Notes under the pieces: generated by a model
Seen by the model: the letters and a program-made list of their open reading frames with translations, nothing else
Told to the model about the DNA's origin: nothing
Databases searched by the model: none
Position numbers and translations under genes: made by a program
NCBI GenBank assembly: GCA_934512105.1
Contig: CAKSWQ010000033.1
Span: 1-23,598 of the forward strand
DNA from: an uncultured Faecalibacterium sp.
GTDB taxonomy: Bacteria; Bacillota; Clostridia; Oscillospirales; Ruminococcaceae
Reading direction: 5' to 3'
DNA: 23,598 nt
Shown: positions 147-23,409 of the stretch, one piece after another
Layout: every line of letters begins with the position of its first letter
Numbering within the stretch: position 1 is the first letter of the stretch

Positions 147-153
147 CGTGTGA

Positions 154-271
154 GACGATTGAAAATGGCTTCCGCTGCGCTCTAGCCATATTCAGCGGAA
201 ATATGATTTATAGATTCGCGTTTGTCGCGCTCTGCGGAGCGCTCCAAACGCATTTTCACAGGAGGGGTCGC
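154..271 (+). repeat. Family 1 pseudoknot/variable-hairpin repeat, copy A
   Basis: This copy begins GACGATT just 7 nt after the upstream T-run. Stem 1 is ATGGCT (165-170) with AGCCAT (184-189). CCGC in its loop (172-175) can pair with GCGG at 195-198, giving an H-type pseudoknot. After an AT-rich spacer comes the variable hairpin at 217-252 around the constant TCTGCGGA (231-238). Its arms match at 13 of 16 positions, so this is the least perfect copy. It ends in CATTTTCAC and GGAGGGGTCG, as copy D does. Confidence 0.8.
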
Positions 272-325
272 AACCGAACATACCCTTTTTCACAGAGAAA
301 GGATATTAAATGCAGTTTTCCGCTG

Positions 326-443
326 TGTCCCCTCTCGTGAAAATGGGATAGCGGAGCGTCCGCAGACGCTCCGCTATCCCGAAATAAAAAAATTCTTCCG
401 CTATTGATGCGCAGAGCAACGCGGAGCGCATTCCAAATCGTCC
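326..443 (-). repeat. Family 1 pseudoknot/variable-hairpin repeat, copy A-prime
   Basis: This copy is inverted relative to copy A, 54 bp away. Read on the minus strand it starts GGGACGATTT. Stem 1 is ATGCGC/GCGCAT (plus-strand 426-431 and 407-412), and CCGC/GCGG (421-424 and 398-401) can form the second pseudoknot stem. The variable hairpin is a perfect 16-bp inverted repeat (345-360 with 365-380) around loop TGCG. Its arm sequence is unrelated to that of copy A. It ends near GAGGGGACAC. Confidence 0.85.
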
Positions 444-448
444 CACGC

Positions 449-1378: not shown

Positions 1379-1646
1379 TGTTGCCTACGTCTACATGGTG
1401 CGCTGCACCGGCGGGCAGCTGTACACCGGTTGGACGAACCATCCCGCCGCCCGGCTGAAAGCGCACCAGAGCGGCAAAGGCGCCCGCTACACCCGCGCCC
1501 ATGGCGCGGTGGGCTTTGCCTATTTAGAGCGCTGCGCGGACAAAAGCGCTGCTCTGCGCCGGGAAGCCGCCCTGAAAAAGCTCCCCAAAGCGGAAAAAGA
1601 GGTGCTGTGCGCCGCATGGCGCGCCGCCGGGTGCCCCGGGGTGTAA
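1362..1646 (+). CDS. GIY-YIG domain nuclease-family protein
   Basis: A 94-residue single-domain protein of the GIY-YIG superfamily (YhbQ/UvrC-N type). The YVY (residues 9-11) and YTGWT (21-25) pair form the GIY...YIG signature. R31, H35 and E68 (in REAALKKL) fit the conserved Arg, His and metal-binding Glu. The length is typical of stand-alone members, whose physiological role is mostly unknown although DNA repair is often proposed. It starts inside the 3' end of the MYG1-like gene (17-nt overlap, different frame) and shares its promoter. A truncated family 1 repeat begins 1 nt after the stop codon. Confidence 0.88.
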   Translation: MAALPDVAYVYMVRCTGGQLYTGWTNHPAARLKAHQSGKGARYTRAHGAVGFAYLERCADKSAALRREAALKKLPKAEKEVLCAAWRAAGCPGV

Positions 1647-1647
1647 A

Positions 1648-1690
1648 CGATTTGAAATGCCCTCCGCGCTGCTTTGGACGATTTTGGGCA
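1648..1690 (+). repeat. Truncated family 1 repeat, copy B
   Basis: Right after the GIY-YIG stop the sequence reads ACGATTTGAAATG, then stem-1 arm ATGCCC (1657-1662), loop CCGC (1664-1667) and GCTGCTTTGG, matching the constant 5' part of copy C. After that it diverges. A displaced GGGCA (1686-1690) may be the remnant of the second arm. No variable hairpin and no GGAGGGGT end are present, so this is a 5' fragment. Confidence 0.6.
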
Positions 1691-3493: not shown

Positions 3494-3549
3494 GGTATTT
3501 GTTGATTCCTCTTTCCGTTACCTCTATGATTGCAATGCCCCTGCGGGGC

Positions 3550-3670
3550 GGGACGATTTAAAATGCCCGCCGCGCTGCTTTGGGCATTTTCAGCGGAATA
3601 ATGATTTATATTTCGGCACAACGGCGCGTCTGCGGACGCGCCGTTGTGCCATTTTTACGGGAAGGCTGCC
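3550..3670 (+). repeat. Family 1 pseudoknot/variable-hairpin repeat, copy C
   Basis: It starts GGGACGATTTA. Stem 1 is ATGCCC (3563-3568) with GGGCAT (3582-3587). CCGC (3570-3573) can pair with GCGG (3593-3596). After ATAATGATTTATATTTC comes a perfect 16-bp inverted repeat, 3615-3630 with 3635-3650, around TGCG (3631-3634). It ends ATTTTTACGGGAAGG. It lies between the ATP-grasp gene and the upstream esterase, antisense to both. Confidence 0.88.
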
Positions 3671-3723
3671 GCGCCTGTTTCCTGCGGAAATGCGGCACGG
3701 CGGGAAAACGTTTGACCACGCGG

Positions 3724-4560: not shown

Positions 4561-4749
4561 ACCCCTTCAGTCTGCTCCCTTTGTTCGCAGCCAGCTCCCC
4601 CAAGGGGGAGCCTTTTGTGGGAATTGGAAACTTTCCGGCATAGCTGCAAGCCGTCCCCTTGGACAGACTCTCCCCGGCCGGGGAGAGATGTCGCGTTTAG
4701 CGACAGAGTGGGGAGCGGGTGGCATCGCGTCAGCGATGACGGAAGGGGT
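4561..4749. repeat. Family 2 MITE-like palindromic repeat, copy 1
   Basis: The ends are ACCCCTTCAGTC and GACGGAAGGGGT, which match as inverted repeats at 11 of 12 positions. Inside are AGCTCCCCCAAGGGGGAGC, GGAAACTTTCCGGCATAG and AAGCCGTCCCCTTGG, all shared with copies 2, 3 and 5, plus a CTCCCCGGCCGGGGAG palindrome shared with copies 4 and 6. It separates the two esterase genes. No clear target duplication is visible. Confidence 0.75.
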
Positions 4750-5626: not shown

Positions 5627-5639
5627 TCTTTATGCGCAG

Positions 5640-5762
5640 CGGGACGGTTTAGAATGCGCTCCGCTTCGCTCTGCGCATAAATAGCGGAATATTGATTTTA
5701 TATTTGCAATTCGGGAAAATCTGCGGATTTTCCCGAATTGCCTTTTCACGGGAGGGGTCGTG
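5640..5762 (+). repeat. Family 1 pseudoknot/variable-hairpin repeat, copy D
   Basis: It starts GGGACGGTTTAG. Stem 1 is ATGCGC (5654-5659) with GCGCAT (5673-5678). CCGC (5661-5664) can pair with GCGG (5684-5687). The variable hairpin is a perfect 16-bp inverted repeat (5706-5721 with 5726-5741) around TGCG (5722-5725), AT-rich in contrast to the GC-rich hairpin of copy C. It ends CTTTTCACGGGAGGGGTCG. It lies between esterase and ilvE, antisense to both. Confidence 0.9.
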
Positions 5763-5788
5763 ACGGTGAACGGCATCTGCGGTGATGC

Positions 5789-5856: not shown

Positions 5857-6936
5857 TTAGTATTTCTTTTCCACAGGCACGATCCAGCCCTTGGTATCGG
5901 GCAGCTTGCCCCACTGCATACCGGTCATGGTGTCGTACAGCTTCTGGGTGACAGGGCCGATCTTGCCGTCGCCGATGAAGGCATGCTCGCCCTTCCAGAC
6001 CAGCTCCTTGACAGGGGAGACGACAGCGGCAGTACCGGTGCCGAACACCTCTTCCAGCTTGCCTTCGCGGGCAGCGGCCATGATGTCGGCAATGGCGATC
6101 TTGCCCTCAACGACCTCATAGCCCCAGTCCTTCAGCAGCTCGATGCAGCTGCGGCGGGTAACGCCGGGCAGCACGGTGCCCACGGTAGCGGCGGTGTACA
6201 CCTTGCCGTCGATCTTGAACATGATGTTCATGCTGCCGACTTCTTCAACGTACTTCTTCTCCACGCCGTCCAGCCACAGCACCTGTGCGTAGCCCTGCTC
6301 CTCGGCCAGCTCGCCGGCCTTGATGGAGGCAGCGTAGTTGCCGCCGCACTTGGTAAAGCCGGTCAGACCCGGGGCGGCGCGGATGTACTCGTCCTCCACA
6401 TAGATGCGCACGGGGTTGATGCCCTCGGCGTAGTAAGCGCCGGAGGGAGCGCAGATGATGCAGAAGATATAGTGCTTGGAAGCGTGCACGCCCAGACCCA
6501 CATCATTAGCAAAGATGAAGGGGCGGATGTACAGGGAAGCGCCGTCAGTGTGGGGCACCCAGTCGCGGTCCACGTCCACCAGAGCCTCGACAGCCTGAAT
6601 GTAGTCCTCTACCGGGATCTTGGGGATGCACAGACGGTCGGCAGAATCCTGAAAACGCTTGGCGTTGCAGTCCGGGCGGAACAGCTGCACGGTGTCGTCG
6701 GCGGTGCGGTAGGCCTTCATGCCCTCAAAGATCTCCTGTGCATAGTGGAACACCACGGTAGCGGGGTCCAGCTCAAAGGGGCCGTAGGGGACGATGCGGG
6801 CATCGTGCCAGCCTTCGCCCTCGGTGTAATCCATGACGAACATATGGTCGGAGAACTTTTTGCCGAAGCCGAGCTTCGTCTCATCGGTGGGCTTTGCCTT
6901 GGGCGCAGCCGTGCGGGTGATCTTGATATCCAACAT
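5857..6936 (-). CDS. ilvE: Branched-chain amino acid aminotransferase
   Basis: A 359-residue fold-type IV PLP aminotransferase of the long bacterial/eukaryotic BCAT class, interconverting leucine, isoleucine and valine with their 2-oxo acids using glutamate/2-oxoglutarate. The PLP lysine is K196 in GFTKCGGNYAAS. Further signatures are FHYAQEIFEGMKAYR (63-77), YIRPF (136-140), EVGSMN (232-237), TRRSC and the phosphate-binding GTGTAAVV. The length is normal for the family. ATG 6936 follows AGAGGG, with a promoter at 7010-7037 and its own terminator, so it is a single-gene unit. The leader of about 65 nt shows no obvious leucine-rich leader peptide or T-box. Confidence 0.95.
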   Translation of the reverse strand: MLDIKITRTAAPKAKPTDETKLGFGKKFSDHMFVMDYTEGEGWHDARIVPYGPFELDPATVVFHYAQEIFEGMKAYRTADDTVQLFRPDCNAKRFQDSADRLCIPKIPVEDYIQAVEALVDVDRDWVPHTDGASLYIRPFIFANDVGLGVHASKHYIFCIICAPSGAYYAEGINPVRIYVEDEYIRAAPGLTGFTKCGGNYAASIKAGELAEEQGYAQVLWLDGVEKKYVEEVGSMNIMFKIDGKVYTAATVGTVLPGVTRRSCIELLKDWGYEVVEGKIAIADIMAAAREGKLEEVFGTGTAAVVSPVKELVWKGEHAFIGDGKIGPVTQKLYDTMTGMQWGKLPDTKGWIVPVEKKY

Positions 6937-7880: not shown

Positions 7881-8012
7881 ACCCCCTCAGGCGCTGCGCG
7901 CCAGCTCCCCCAAGGGGGCGCCTTTGCGCTATGCCGGAAACTTTGCCGCCACCGCCAAAAGCCGTCCCCTTGGGGAAGGTGGCTGCGAACGCAGTGAGCA
8001 GACGGAAGGGGT
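7881..8012 (-). repeat. Family 2 MITE-like palindromic repeat, copy 2
   Basis: It runs from ACCCCCTCAGGC to GACGGAAGGGGT. It is the reverse orientation of copies 3 and 5: it shares AGCTCCCCCAAGGGGGCGCC, CTATGCCGGAAACTTTG and AAAGCCGTCCCCTTGGGG with their reverse complements. It directly abuts family 1 copy E (9 bp apart), on the 3' side of the HAD gene. Confidence 0.82.
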
Positions 8013-8021
8013 ATTCCACCC

Positions 8022-8131
8022 GTGAAAATACAAGCCCGGAAAGTCCGCAGACTTTCCGGGCTTGTTCTAATAAAAAATAATTTTTCCGCTGAATATGCGC
8101 AAAGCGAACGCGGAGCGCATTCAAATCGTCA
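8022..8131 (-). repeat. Family 1 pseudoknot/variable-hairpin repeat, copy E
   Basis: On the minus strand it begins GACGATTTGAATG, 4 nt after the 5'-nucleotidase stop. Stem 1 is ATGCGC/GCGCAT (plus 8115-8120 and 8095-8100), and CCGC/GCGG (8110-8113 and 8086-8089) are present. A perfect 16-bp variable hairpin, 8030-8045 with 8050-8065, encloses loop TGCG. The 3' end reads ATTTTCACGGG, and the GAGGGGTCG end is replaced by sequence leading into family 2 copy 2. Confidence 0.88.
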
Positions 8132-8134
8132 GGC

Positions 8135-10090
8135 TCAGCCCCGCGCCTTTTTTCTGCGGCGGAGCTTGCGCACCAGCTTACGGAGCAGCAGCACAAGGCA
8201 CACCACCAGCAGAATGACGGTGAGAATCAGGCCAAGAAGGATAAAGGCAAAGCGGTTGGGCTTTTTCAGCAGCGCGGAAAGGCTGCGGCTGTCCTCCACT
8301 TTTTTGCGGTCGTGCAGGGTGCTGTAATAGTCCGGCACGTTGCCGATGCCGTCGCCGTCGGTGTCCTCGAACGAGGCCATGTACCGCGCAATGGCGTCCC
8401 AGCCCTTCAGCTCTTTGCCGTTTTCGGTGAGGATCACATCCTCAAAGTCCTCGATGGGGGTGCCATCGGCGTACTTCGGCACGATGGACAGAATGCCGTA
8501 GGACATATCGGTGACAGCGCTCAGCATCTGCCCGCTGTAAAGGTCTGCCACGATGCGGTACAGCCTGTCGTCCTGCAGCTCTACGCGCTGCCCGTCCTTG
8601 ACCAGATAGACGTCCGTCACCTTGTTCAGCAGCAGGCGGTGGGGGTTGTAGGTGAAGTTCAGGCCGCTGCAATACAGCCGCGCGGTGGTCATGAAATCCG
8701 AGATGGAAGCGTCGATCTCGGCGGCGGTGCGCAGCTCCTTGCCGGTAAGGTAGACTTCGATGAGGGGATAGCCCGGCACGCCGTCCGCGCCGATGCCCAG
8801 CGAGAAGGAGTTGAACACCTGCTCCACCGTGATATCGCCCCGGGCGTAGGTGTCACGCACGGTGCCGCTGGGCACCACCGCCAGATCCACCGGCACGCCG
8901 TCATAGTCGGCGGCGTTCTCCACTGCGTACACATAGGCGTCCGCGATGATATCGCCCAGATTGTGCTCGGTGTGCACCTTGCCCAGATCTTTCAGGTTGG
9001 AAAAAACAACATCGTTTTCTGCCAGCACCTGATCCTTGGTGTAGCCGAACTGCGCTAGATAGTCCTCGTCCACCGTATCCATAAAGCGGTCGATGACCGC
9101 TTGCGTGTCCGCGTCAGCGGGGATATCGGAAGTGATGGGGATCAGCTGGTAATCGGTGATCTGCCAGCGGCCGTTTTCCTTCTGCGCCATGGCAATGCTG
9201 CCCAGATTTTTGCCGTACTCGCCGCAGGACACCACATAGGTGTCCCCGTGCCGGATGGGCTCAGTGATGCGGCTGTGGGTGTGGCCGCTGAGGATAAGGT
9301 CGAGGTCGGGCACGCCCTTGGCCAGCAGCTCGTCCTCGGACTTTTTGGGGTCGTCCCAAGTGCCGCTGTGGGAAACGCAGACGATCATATCCGCAGCTTC
9401 ATTCGCCTTGATCTCTGCCACGGTGGCTTTTACCGCCTGTACCGGGTCCTTGAACTTCAGCTCACAGGTGGGTGCGCAGGAGAGGGCATCCTTGCCGAAA
9501 ACGCCCACCACGGCAATGCGCACATCGCCTTTTTGCAGCACGATGTAGTCCTGTACGCCGTAGGCAGCAAAGGCGTCTTTGAGCAGCTGCTGTCCCTCAG
9601 TAAGACCGGCACTTTCCATGGCATCCCAGTCCACATTGCAGACCACGAGGGCCGGGACGGCATCGCCGGAGGTGCGGGCACTGGTAAGCATATTGGCAAG
9701 ACCCTTGGAGCGGTAGTCGAACTCGTGGTTGCCGAGGGTGGTCACATCGCAGCCCATGTAGCCCAGCATCCGCAGCTCTGCGGCCTGCGTTTCAAACACC
9801 GTCTGGATTAGGGTGCCCATGGAAAAGTCGCCGCCGTCGATCACAAGGGTGTCCGGGTTTTTGGCGCGCTGCGCCTTGATGAGGGTGTTGGCGCGGGCAA
9901 AGCCGCCGATGTCCGTTTCCTCGTCCTCCACCACAGTGGTGAAGGTGTTCAGGTGGGAGTGGGTGTCGTGGCTGAACAGGATGTCCAGCGTTTTGCCTGT
10001 TTCCGGTGCCTGCCCATAGGCGGCGGGAATGCCCAGCAGTACTGAAAACAGCAGCAGCACGGCCACCGTCATGGCGAAAAGCTTTTTCAT
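8135..10090 (-). CDS. Secreted, membrane-anchored 5'-nucleotidase / UshA-like metallophosphoesterase
   Basis: A 651-residue exported two-domain nucleotidase releasing phosphate from extracellular nucleotides. A signal peptide covers about 1-26 (KK, hydrophobic core, AYG/Q cleavage region). The calcineurin-like domain shows DTHSH (D42, H44), GGDF (86-89), GNHEFD (120-125), VSHSG (239-243) and GHTH (269-272), the complete dimetal set. The C-terminal nucleotidase domain covers about 360-560, with NLGDIIADAY and SGTVRDTY. Then come a calcium-loop-like DTDGDG (576-581), a membrane helix at about 614-636 and a basic tail RKLRRRKKARG. Anchoring is thus by a C-terminal helix, not a visible LPXTG sortase motif. 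ATG 10090 follows AAAGGAG. A promoter lies at 10195-10223. Confidence 0.9.
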   Translation of the reverse strand: MKKLFAMTVAVLLLFSVLLGIPAAYGQAPETGKTLDILFSHDTHSHLNTFTTVVEDEETDIGGFARANTLIKAQRAKNPDTLVIDGGDFSMGTLIQTVFETQAAELRMLGYMGCDVTTLGNHEFDYRSKGLANMLTSARTSGDAVPALVVCNVDWDAMESAGLTEGQQLLKDAFAAYGVQDYIVLQKGDVRIAVVGVFGKDALSCAPTCELKFKDPVQAVKATVAEIKANEAADMIVCVSHSGTWDDPKKSEDELLAKGVPDLDLILSGHTHSRITEPIRHGDTYVVSCGEYGKNLGSIAMAQKENGRWQITDYQLIPITSDIPADADTQAVIDRFMDTVDEDYLAQFGYTKDQVLAENDVVFSNLKDLGKVHTEHNLGDIIADAYVYAVENAADYDGVPVDLAVVPSGTVRDTYARGDITVEQVFNSFSLGIGADGVPGYPLIEVYLTGKELRTAAEIDASISDFMTTARLYCSGLNFTYNPHRLLLNKVTDVYLVKDGQRVELQDDRLYRIVADLYSGQMLSAVTDMSYGILSIVPKYADGTPIEDFEDVILTENGKELKGWDAIARYMASFEDTDGDGIGNVPDYYSTLHDRKKVEDSRSLSALLKKPNRFAFILLGLILTVILLVVCLVLLLRKLVRKLRRRKKARG

Positions 10091-10313: not shown

Positions 10314-10449
10314 ACCCCTTCCGTCTTGCCGCTGCGCGTCAAGCCACCTTCCCCAAGGGGACGGCTTTAGCGACGGTGATAAAGTTTCCGGCATAGTCCA
10401 AAGGCGTCCCCTTGGGGGAGCTGGCGAACGTAGTGAGCCTGAGGGGGGT
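10314..10449 (+). repeat. Family 2 MITE-like palindromic repeat, copy 3
   Basis: It runs from ACCCCTTCCGTC to CTGAGGGGGGT. Internal order is CACCTTCCCCAAGGGGACGG, CTTTAGCGACGG, AAAGTTTCCGGCATAG, AAGGCGTCCCCTTGGGGG and GCGAACGTAGTGAGC. It is nearly colinear with copy 5 (15871-16009) and inverse to copy 2. It lies between the 5'-nucleotidase promoter and the ROK kinase terminator. Confidence 0.85.
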
Positions 10450-15870: not shown

Positions 15871-16009
15871 ACCCCTTCCGTCATCGCCTGCGGCGATGCC
15901 ACCTTCCCCAAGGGGACGGCTTTAGCGGTGGTGGGAAAGTTTCCAGCTCAGCTCAAAGGCGTCCCCTTGGGGGAGCTGGCTGCGAACGTAGTGAGCAGAC
16001 TGAGGGGGT
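15871..16009 (+). repeat. Family 2 MITE-like palindromic repeat, copy 5
   Basis: It runs from ACCCCTTCCGTC to ACTGAGGGGGT and is nearly colinear with copy 3: CACCTTCCCCAAGGGGACGG, CTTTAGCGGTGG, AAAGTTTCC, AAAGGCGTCCCCTTGGGGG and GCGAACGTAGTGAGCAG. It starts 9 bp after copy 4 and ends 67 bp before the NUDIX start codon. Confidence 0.85.
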
Positions 16010-19674: not shown

Positions 19675-19717
19675 GTAAAAAAGTGATACCGGGCAGCCGC
19701 AGGCTGCCCGGCATCAC
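19675..19717. terminator. Terminator hairpin between the convergent nagA and crr genes (distal for crr)
   Basis: The stem GTGAT-A-CCGGGCAGCC (19683-19698) pairs with GGCTGCCCGG-C-ATCAC (19702-19717) with a single mismatch and a 3-nt loop. On the minus strand a T-run (plus A-run 19677-19682) follows. It lies 13 nt after nagA and can also end nagA transcripts. Confidence 0.75.
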
Positions 19718-19741
19718 GCTGTAAAAAGATGTTTCCGCAAA

Positions 19742-19775
19742 AAAGAGGCCGCTGCGCGATGGCAGCGGCCTCTTT
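19742..19775 (-). terminator. Intrinsic terminator of the EIIA(Glc) gene
   Basis: A perfect 14-bp stem, AAAGAGGCCGCTGC (19742-19755) with 19762-19775, is followed on the minus strand by TTTTTTGC. It lies 13 nt beyond the crr stop. TTT on the plus side allows some bidirectional action. Confidence 0.85.
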
Positions 19776-23233: not shown

Positions 23234-23278
23234 TACCCCCTCAGGCTCACTACGTTCGCCAGCTCCCCCAAGGGGACG
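23234..23278 (+). repeat. Family 2 repeat fragment, copy 7a
   Basis: ACCCCCTCAGGCTCACTACG, TTCGCCAGCTCCCCCAAGGGG is one terminal half of the family 2 element, cut off by copy 7b immediately after it. Confidence 0.65.
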
Positions 23279-23409
23279 AACCCTCTCAGGCTCACATTCG
23301 TTCGCCAGCTCCCCCGAAAGGGGGAGCTTTTTGTCATCTTCCGGGTAGCACGAATAAAGCTCCCCCTTTCGGGGGAGCTGGCACGCCGTCAGGCGTGACT
23401 GAGAGGGTT
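23279..23409. repeat. Family 2-type palindromic element, copy 7b
   Basis: The ends AACCCTCTCAG and CTGAGAGGGTT are perfect inverted repeats. Inside are two further hairpins, AGCTCCCCC-GAAA-GGGGGAGCT (23307-23328) and its inverse AGCTCCCCC-TTTC-GGGGGAGCT (23358-23379), so the whole element is a large nested palindrome around a short unique centre. Confidence 0.8.
23307..23332 (+). terminator. Intrinsic terminator of the DUF3048 operon, inside repeat 7b
   Basis: A perfect 9-bp stem with GAAA loop (23307-23328) is followed by TTTT, 90 nt after the second lipoprotein stop. Confidence 0.75.

Follow-up and report, generated by a model that had tools for sequence, protein, structure and literature searches.

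The window analysed here, a stretch of 23,598 nucleotides from an uncultured Faecalibacterium sp., carries five near-complete copies of an interspersed repeat and two further, degraded pieces of it, near 1646-1685 (+) and 19675-19773 (-). Among its genes is one at 5857-6936 (-), whose protein we take to resemble a branched-chain aminotransferase. A sequence-only reading had located the five copies, and the spans given by a covariance model agree with it. The features are the following.

149..275, + strand: copy 1, of the 15-nt sub-type with a TC/TC mismatch (covariance model, 113.0 bits)
218..251, + strand: variable stem of copy 1, 15-4-15, 13/15 pairs (sequence)
321..447, - strand: copy 2 (covariance model, 138.6 bits)
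345..380, - strand: variable stem of copy 2, perfect 16-4-16 (sequence)
149..447, no strand: convergent two-copy module of copies 1 and 2, inverted relative to its flanks in G001 (blastn, window pieces against L094)
1646..1685 (approximate), + strand: 5' remnant of a copy (repeat-family listing)
3547..3674, + strand: copy 3, the place of the original finding (covariance model, 140.4 bits)
3615..3650, + strand: variable stem of copy 3, perfect 16-4-16, flagged as terminator-like, unlike the other four (terminator scan)
5638..5765, + strand: copy 4 (covariance model, 142.8 bits)
5706..5741, + strand: variable stem of copy 4, perfect 16-4-16 (sequence)
8006..8135, - strand: copy 5 (covariance model, 123.1 bits)
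8030..8065, - strand: variable stem of copy 5, perfect 16-4-16 (sequence)
19675..19773, - strand: degraded copy lacking the 5' part (covariance model, 40.0 bits)
4590-4672, 7901-7983, 10343-10425, 15898-15980 and 23258-23333: repeats of another family, of GCCAGCTCCCCCAAGGGG type

The repeat family is genuine. Its element is non-coding, lies interspersed between genes and is specific to what looks like one clade of Faecalibacterium. Its unit of about 120 bp consists of GACGATTT, a hairpin with a 6-bp stem and a loop of mostly 13-14 nt, AGCGGAA, an AT-rich linker, a 16-bp stem with a TGCG loop, and TTTTCACGGGAGGGGTCG; when the window copies are aligned, they start with a GACGATTT-like and finish with a GGGGTCG-like sequence. 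TCTGCGGA occurs 8 times in the window against 0.87 expected, and positions compatible with a 16-4-16 hairpin with at most three mismatches number 12, against at most 1 in 20 mononucleotide shuffles; exactly four are perfect. Thus the earlier statement that four of the five hairpins pair 16/16 was confirmed, and the 36-nt 16-4-16 format, said to be invariable, holds for copies 2 to 5, whereas copy 1 is 15-4-15 with 13/15 rather than 13/16 pairs. The tandem TC/TC mismatch of copy 1 marks a recurrent sub-type, with 28 full-length copies and 29 pattern matches in the sample described below. The arms had also been called entirely different from copy to copy, which is too strong: with the final TC excluded, the four 16-nt window arms share, pairwise, 4 to 10 of 14 letters. 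Rfam families gave 0 matches in the window at gathering thresholds, and we found no published description of the family in the open-licence PMC literature.

A covariance model built from the five window copies, with matches accepted at E <= 1e-4, matched 10 of 31 Faecalibacterium genomes, eight of them with 76 to at least 112 copies and two with 3 copies each; at the same threshold the other 21 had no copies. Outside the genus, one weak match (G026, E 0.0072) came from a previous set of 31 genomes, of which 19 belonged to the genus and 12 to the order. When the genomes were ranked by identity to the 5857-6936 (-) protein, for which one genome had no match, the eight copy-rich genomes were those at 97-100% identity, and next, at 96%, stood G007 with 3 copies and G016 with 0, so that the family looks tied to one clade. 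The genome nearest to the window among those compared was G001. On the G006 chromosome copies seem scarce between 0.86 and 2.2 Mb (about 45% of its length), where 8 of the 79 matches listed lie. Two IMG/VR contigs filed as viral, L060 and L061, also carry copies and may be host DNA or prophage borders.

The sample assembled for comparison covers 2.83 Mb, 162 loci and 322 copies, of which 303 have a usable 3' anchor and 233 are full-length; its G006 and G010 stretches were picked for holding copies, so copy density is unreadable from them. A constant arm length and loop had been proposed, and this stands in the main: arms are 16 nt in 165 of the 233 full-length copies and the loop is TGCG in 211, while lengths of 15 (48 copies), 17 (16) and 14 (4) also occur, some of the 17-nt arms perhaps by chance extension through a flanking T-A. 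In two of the 233 the loop is CGCA, the reverse complement of TGCG. The stem is wholly Watson-Crick in 138/164 16-nt stems, and the 233 full-length copies hold 137 distinct 5' arms. Most stem positions nonetheless have one to three dominant pairs family-wide, and the arms have a consensus and recurring types; GCGTTTGTCGCGCTC and GCAATTCTGGAAAATC were seen 17 and 14 times in 225 copies, contrary to the suggestion of a unique perfect stem per locus.

With gene positions taken from a simple codon-based prediction, which left 12 of 214 copies unclassified, the gene on the 5' side was co-oriented with the repeat in 140 of 202 copies at a median distance of 14 bp, and the 5' end of the repeat often follows directly after a stop codon. 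In convergent regions with a single copy, the 5' end was the one nearer to a gene in 39/45 (median 14 vs 135 bp). Sense and antisense copies were equally frequent in co-directional regions (34:32), and 43/44 neighboring copies no more than 400 bp apart were convergent. Among intergenic regions of at least 180 bp, 62/184 convergent and 13/178 divergent ones held a full copy. The GCCAGCTCCCCCAAGGGG-type repeats, often inverted, lie in the same intergenic islands.

Comparison of the same locus between strains is the most direct view of how the stems change. We defined orthologs by two-sided synteny with repeats masked, which gave 64 rows; an earlier single-flank search (218 pairs, 152 "different") was set aside because the flanks contain the convergent partner and other repeats. 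The stems were identical in 28 rows, partly changed in 17 and entirely different in 19. Counts of changes leave out the 22 of 64 rows that were not at least 75% alike on both arms, and 10 rows with truncated copies were counted apart. The remaining 32 rows of full-length copies with alike stems (502 pairs) showed 12 two-arm and 3 one-arm changes, and because 6 of these 12 come from two comparisons with a single ATCC 27768 copy, we also used each copy once, which left 9 two-arm and 3 one-arm changes in 438 pairs. Between intact orthologs of G001 and G006 alone, there were no one-arm and 4 two-arm changes in 295 stem pairs. In 29 of the 32 rows the other parts of the repeat had diverged (5' part, 158/1882 columns; 3' part, 70/580), so that the stem is conserved in place and not merely young. 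Copy 3 and its I4-1-79 ortholog (L045) differ in two adjacent pairs on both arms, plus the loop; L045 has lost most of its 5' part and was scored among the truncated rows. A concerted change of arm length was clear in one case (G001 L113 and G006 L132). At a given locus, then, the stem of an intact copy remains Watson-Crick, and most of the changes observed in it affect both arms. The comparison between strains that had been proposed shows arms changing in concert, and whole stems exchanged as well, an outcome that supports copying and exchange.

Ordinary hairpins behave differently. In the same genome comparisons terminator-like hairpins had 66 one-arm and 6 two-arm changes, with 147 standing G.U in 1048 pairs, and hairpins of at least 15 bp had 116 one-arm changes (Watson-Crick against other states) and 9 two-arm changes in 1489 pairs, both being pooled controls that reuse some hairpins across genomes and allow G.U in the chosen hairpin. 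A strict matched control, in which hairpins are Watson-Crick in G006 and each is used once between G006 and G001, gave 17 one-arm changes and 1 two-arm change in 266 pairs at 12 bp or more (one-arm changes per pair, p = 2e-6) and 8 and 1, respectively, in 192 pairs at 14 bp or more (p = 5e-4). However the comparison is drawn, one-arm changes are scarce in the repeats (p 2e-8 to 0.0045). For two-arm changes, an excess over ordinary hairpins reached p = 0.0017 in the pooled data but 0.057-0.65 in the matched G001/G006 sets, and, with two-arm counts small throughout, we regard it as not robust. Copies truncated at the 5' end provide a second contrast: 39/502 of their pairs are non-Watson-Crick (23 G.U, 11 A.C, 5 others) against 37/3370 (1.1%) in intact copies, where the frequent mismatches that would speak against a maintained stem are therefore absent, and they show 10 one-arm and 2 two-arm changes. 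The degraded window copy at 19675..19773 (-) differs from its G006 ortholog at five stem positions, each on one arm. Copies without the 5' part lose the coupling of their arms and behave like ordinary hairpins.

The kinds of mismatch and of substitution bear on the level at which pairing is maintained. Our premise was that selection on one RNA strand would tolerate G.U and not A.C; full-length copies hold 15 G.U, 14 A.C and 7 other non-Watson-Crick pairs in 3355, a G.U share that departs from 80% (p = 6e-4), and with no G.U excess (15:14) we rejected compensation on an RNA strand as the sole explanation. Stems one pair apart differ by 22 transitions and 17 transversions. Given an intergenic background of 3197 transitions and 1554 transversions, independent compensation would produce 89% transitions, which is rejected (p = 1.3e-7), and arm copying after one mutation would produce 67%, which is compatible (p = 0.17). 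A spanning forest that prefers transitions still gave 22:15, and the two-arm changes in orthologs, each copy used once, comprised 5 transitions to 4 transversions. The TC/TC sub-type points the same way: beside its 29 uncorrected pattern matches stand 9 copies in which both bases are now the complement of the other arm on the 3' side, 1-2 on the 5' side and 1 half-way, counts for which the order of the TC/TC and TC/GA states, and hence the direction of change, is not established. There is a limit to how fast any correction can run, since an ortholog pair from G001 and G010, about 87% identical in its flanks, still has the mismatch.

Three further candidates were set aside. Template switching as a general process is not adequate because ordinary long hairpins here are not homogenised; it would be too slow, and something specific to the intact element is needed. 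An UNCG tetraloop as the cause of the constant loop is contradicted by the loop variants, TGTG (a change of the third base) occurring 6 times and TACG (a change of the free second base) 2 times. A pseudoknot between the 5' loop (TCCGC) and AGCGGAA fails for want of covariation, the loop being unchanged where the downstream sequence is AGAGGAA or CAAGGAA.

Of the 19 ortholog rows with entirely different stems, a by-eye reading leaves about 15 clean loci, after removal of a long-loop form (L090/L073) and a non-family hairpin (L054:624/L176) and merging of rows that share a subject copy (L067/L107) or count one locus twice (L129 with L098 and L147). At these loci unrelated stem types occupy the same place between flanks about 94-97% identical, and in some cases (L135/L102, L122/L051) the linker or the 3' side is the same. 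Across copies the type of the 5' hairpin is nearly independent of the type of stem (z 3-4), and stem halves and adjacent bases are strongly linked (z 25, 12.5, 9.5). Ectopic gene conversion with short tracts would be the simplest cause of such exchange. Of 10 pairs with two-arm changes, 8 have one stem or both without a match at any other sampled copy, a check in which two subject copies occur twice and each genome is sampled in part, so conversion may not explain all.

We favor, tentatively and at a probability of roughly 0.45, a composite account in which a REPIN- or SPRITE-like repeat acquires its stems by template-switch copying, has them shuffled by ectopic conversion and keeps them perfect through a constraint at the level of the duplex. 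A template switch during replication, inside the palindrome, would use one arm to rewrite the other and so give rise to a new stem. The orthologs show that whole stems are passed from copy to copy, probably via ectopic gene conversion through the conserved blocks, which would reassort stems and 5' hairpins and leave pairing unbroken. Intact copies would also be subject to a constraint that removes one-arm changes; two observations call for it, the lack of homogenisation in ordinary long hairpins and the survival of the TC/TC mismatch in G001/G010, and since it tolerates neither G.U nor A.C, its target would be the DNA, as duplex or hairpin, or both strands, and not a single RNA strand. The two CGCA loops, together with 5 of 12 inverted loop modules, are the expected outcome of spacer inversion. 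The sequence-only reading had posed copying or arm exchange against strong selection as alternatives; copying and exchange are supported, and a selective constraint is needed besides, which may even suffice without special copying. Strict purifying selection of that kind would have each copy serve the host as a DNA hairpin or a both-strand hairpin, mismatches being purged and rare second mutations restoring the pair. The near absence of one-arm changes in intact copies and their frequency in 5'-truncated ones, the equal rarity of G.U and A.C, the placement just past stop codons and the fragility of the two-arm excess all agree with it, but independent mutations predict about 89% transitions where 22/39 were observed, two-base corrections outnumber half-corrections in the TC/TC sub-type, and 28 full-length copies tolerate a tandem mismatch, so we consider selection by itself a somewhat unlikely, if serious, alternative.

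One might instead suppose that a dedicated process, requiring the 5' part in cis, rewrites arms and swaps stems, so that a length-locked, hypervariable palindrome is kept by copying and not by selection on each pair; we think this improbable. Its agent could be a recombinase, a transposase or a hairpin-copying intermediate that acts on intact elements and rewrites or replaces the stem, and the loss of coupling in truncated copies, the replacement of stems in place and the inversion of loop modules and of the two-copy module are what such an enzyme might leave behind; no co-occurring enzyme was found, however, the Y1 transposase, the one family examined, being missing from 2/8 copy-rich genomes and present in 5 copy-free ones, and none of the empty-site alignments listed has a clean target-site duplication, which makes an enzyme of this sort an improbable agent indeed. 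Compensatory evolution at the RNA level, of a 3' UTR element or terminator with an UNCG-type loop, draws on the 5' end that follows a same-direction gene in 140/202 copies and lies nearer in 39/45 convergent regions, and on the motif C(TGCG)G, which we take to be UNCG-like on one strand only. It is very unlikely given that G.U does not exceed A.C, unlike the 147 G.U in 1048 pairs of terminator-like hairpins, that the loop varies as TGTG more than as TACG, that a simple scan for a stem and T-rich tail scores 1/5 window stems as terminator-like, and that sense and antisense copies are balanced in co-directional regions. Ectopic gene conversion alone, with stems traveling as blocks that are paired because their donors were paired, would account for the entirely different stems in 19/64 rows and for the near-independence of 5' hairpin and stem; it makes no matched new stems, yet there are 137 distinct arms in 233 copies and, in 8 of 10 two-arm-changed pairs, a stem without another sampled copy, and we give it hardly any weight.

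The repeat stands near several known systems. The sequence-only reading had known of no named repeat of such design, a statement that is not supported, as REPINs, with a length-conserved hairpin spacer, are similar in the available part of their description (PMC3116915). In conserved ends, a fixed-length paired variable middle and inverted doublets the Faecalibacterium repeat is closest to them, and it fails on tag and transposase. REPINs and REP doublets with RAYT are likewise extragenic, multi-copy inverted doublets with conserved ends, and their authors regard spacer length and the capacity to form a hairpin as apparently critical and compensatory changes as common; here, by contrast, each 120-bp unit has its own 16-bp perfect variable stem (PMC3116915). 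The GTAG tag was absent from the ends of the aligned window copies. PF01797 (Y1 transposase), the one protein family examined in the proposed search for a co-occurring protein, does not follow the copies: it was matched in 6/8 copy-rich genomes, in some of them broken, was missing in G006 and G041, and was also matched in 5 genomes without copies, and RAYT mobilisation was rejected on this distribution. The pneumococcal SPRITE, BOX and RUP elements likewise belong to one lineage, as short interspersed repeats that occur more often where genes converge, and SPRITE is described as terminator-like and near gene 3' ends; they have another layout, and, compared by description rather than by sequence, the available text describes no coupling of arms (PMC3049150). 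Enrichment between convergent genes and near gene 3' ends is a trait that our repeat has in common with the SPRITE/BOX type.

CGTC-tagged REPs are likewise palindromic and without a dedicated transposase, and the 5' end of the Faecalibacterium repeat, GACG, is CGTC on the other strand; the portion of that report at hand gives stems of 8-9 bp with loops of 4-5 and names five phyla, Firmicutes not among them (PMC3733652). Here the geometry is different, with a 6-bp stem and a loop of mostly 13-14 and a 15-16-bp stem and a loop of 4. Template switching at quasipalindromes is a mechanism and not a repeat family; its products include arm homogenisation and spacer inversion (PMC8604942), it has been argued to create and maintain RNA hairpins (PMC8794818), and, as far as the available parts of these sources go, arm homogenisation, multi-base correction and spacer inversion match what is seen here (PMC8604942, PMC8794818). 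The TC/TC and TC/GA forms, the CGCA loops and the inverted loop modules bear its signature in the repeat, the direction of change not being proven, whereas ordinary long hairpins here are without it. As to a MITE, 61 syntenic copy-free places were compared, and the alignments listed show no duplication; in many of them the two sides differ by several hundred bases that include other repeats.

Whether dispersed palindromes keep their arms matched through selection and compensation or through copying has long been asked of REPs, REPINs and RNA hairpins. One genome here provides about 100 palindromes of the same family and, as built-in controls, both truncated siblings and ordinary hairpins, so that comparison of strain genomes can separate selection from copying. 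In an abundant gut commensal, moreover, inversions and intergenic regions of mosaic make-up are marked by these repeats.

Additional modules accompany the repeat. A further hairpin of type GCAGCGCCGCTTTCTGCGAAAGCGCGGCGCTGC, also with a TGCG loop, follows the 3' block in many copies (e.g., L042 and L115), and the full unit may therefore be longer. Twelve copies have a nearly constant module of about 97 nt inside their variable-stem loop (L033, L058, L071, L073, L078, L079, L094, L126, L135, L137, L139 and L169), 7 forward and 5 inverted, and at one locus the same stem is found without it (G006 L074) and with it (I4-1-79 L033). A second conserved module, of about 115 nt, gave 26 pattern matches (L045, L074, L113, L126 and others); by eye, the 5' hairpin loop of the repeat contains 15 of these and the other 11 are outside it, which suggests an independent repeat that inserts into hairpin loops.
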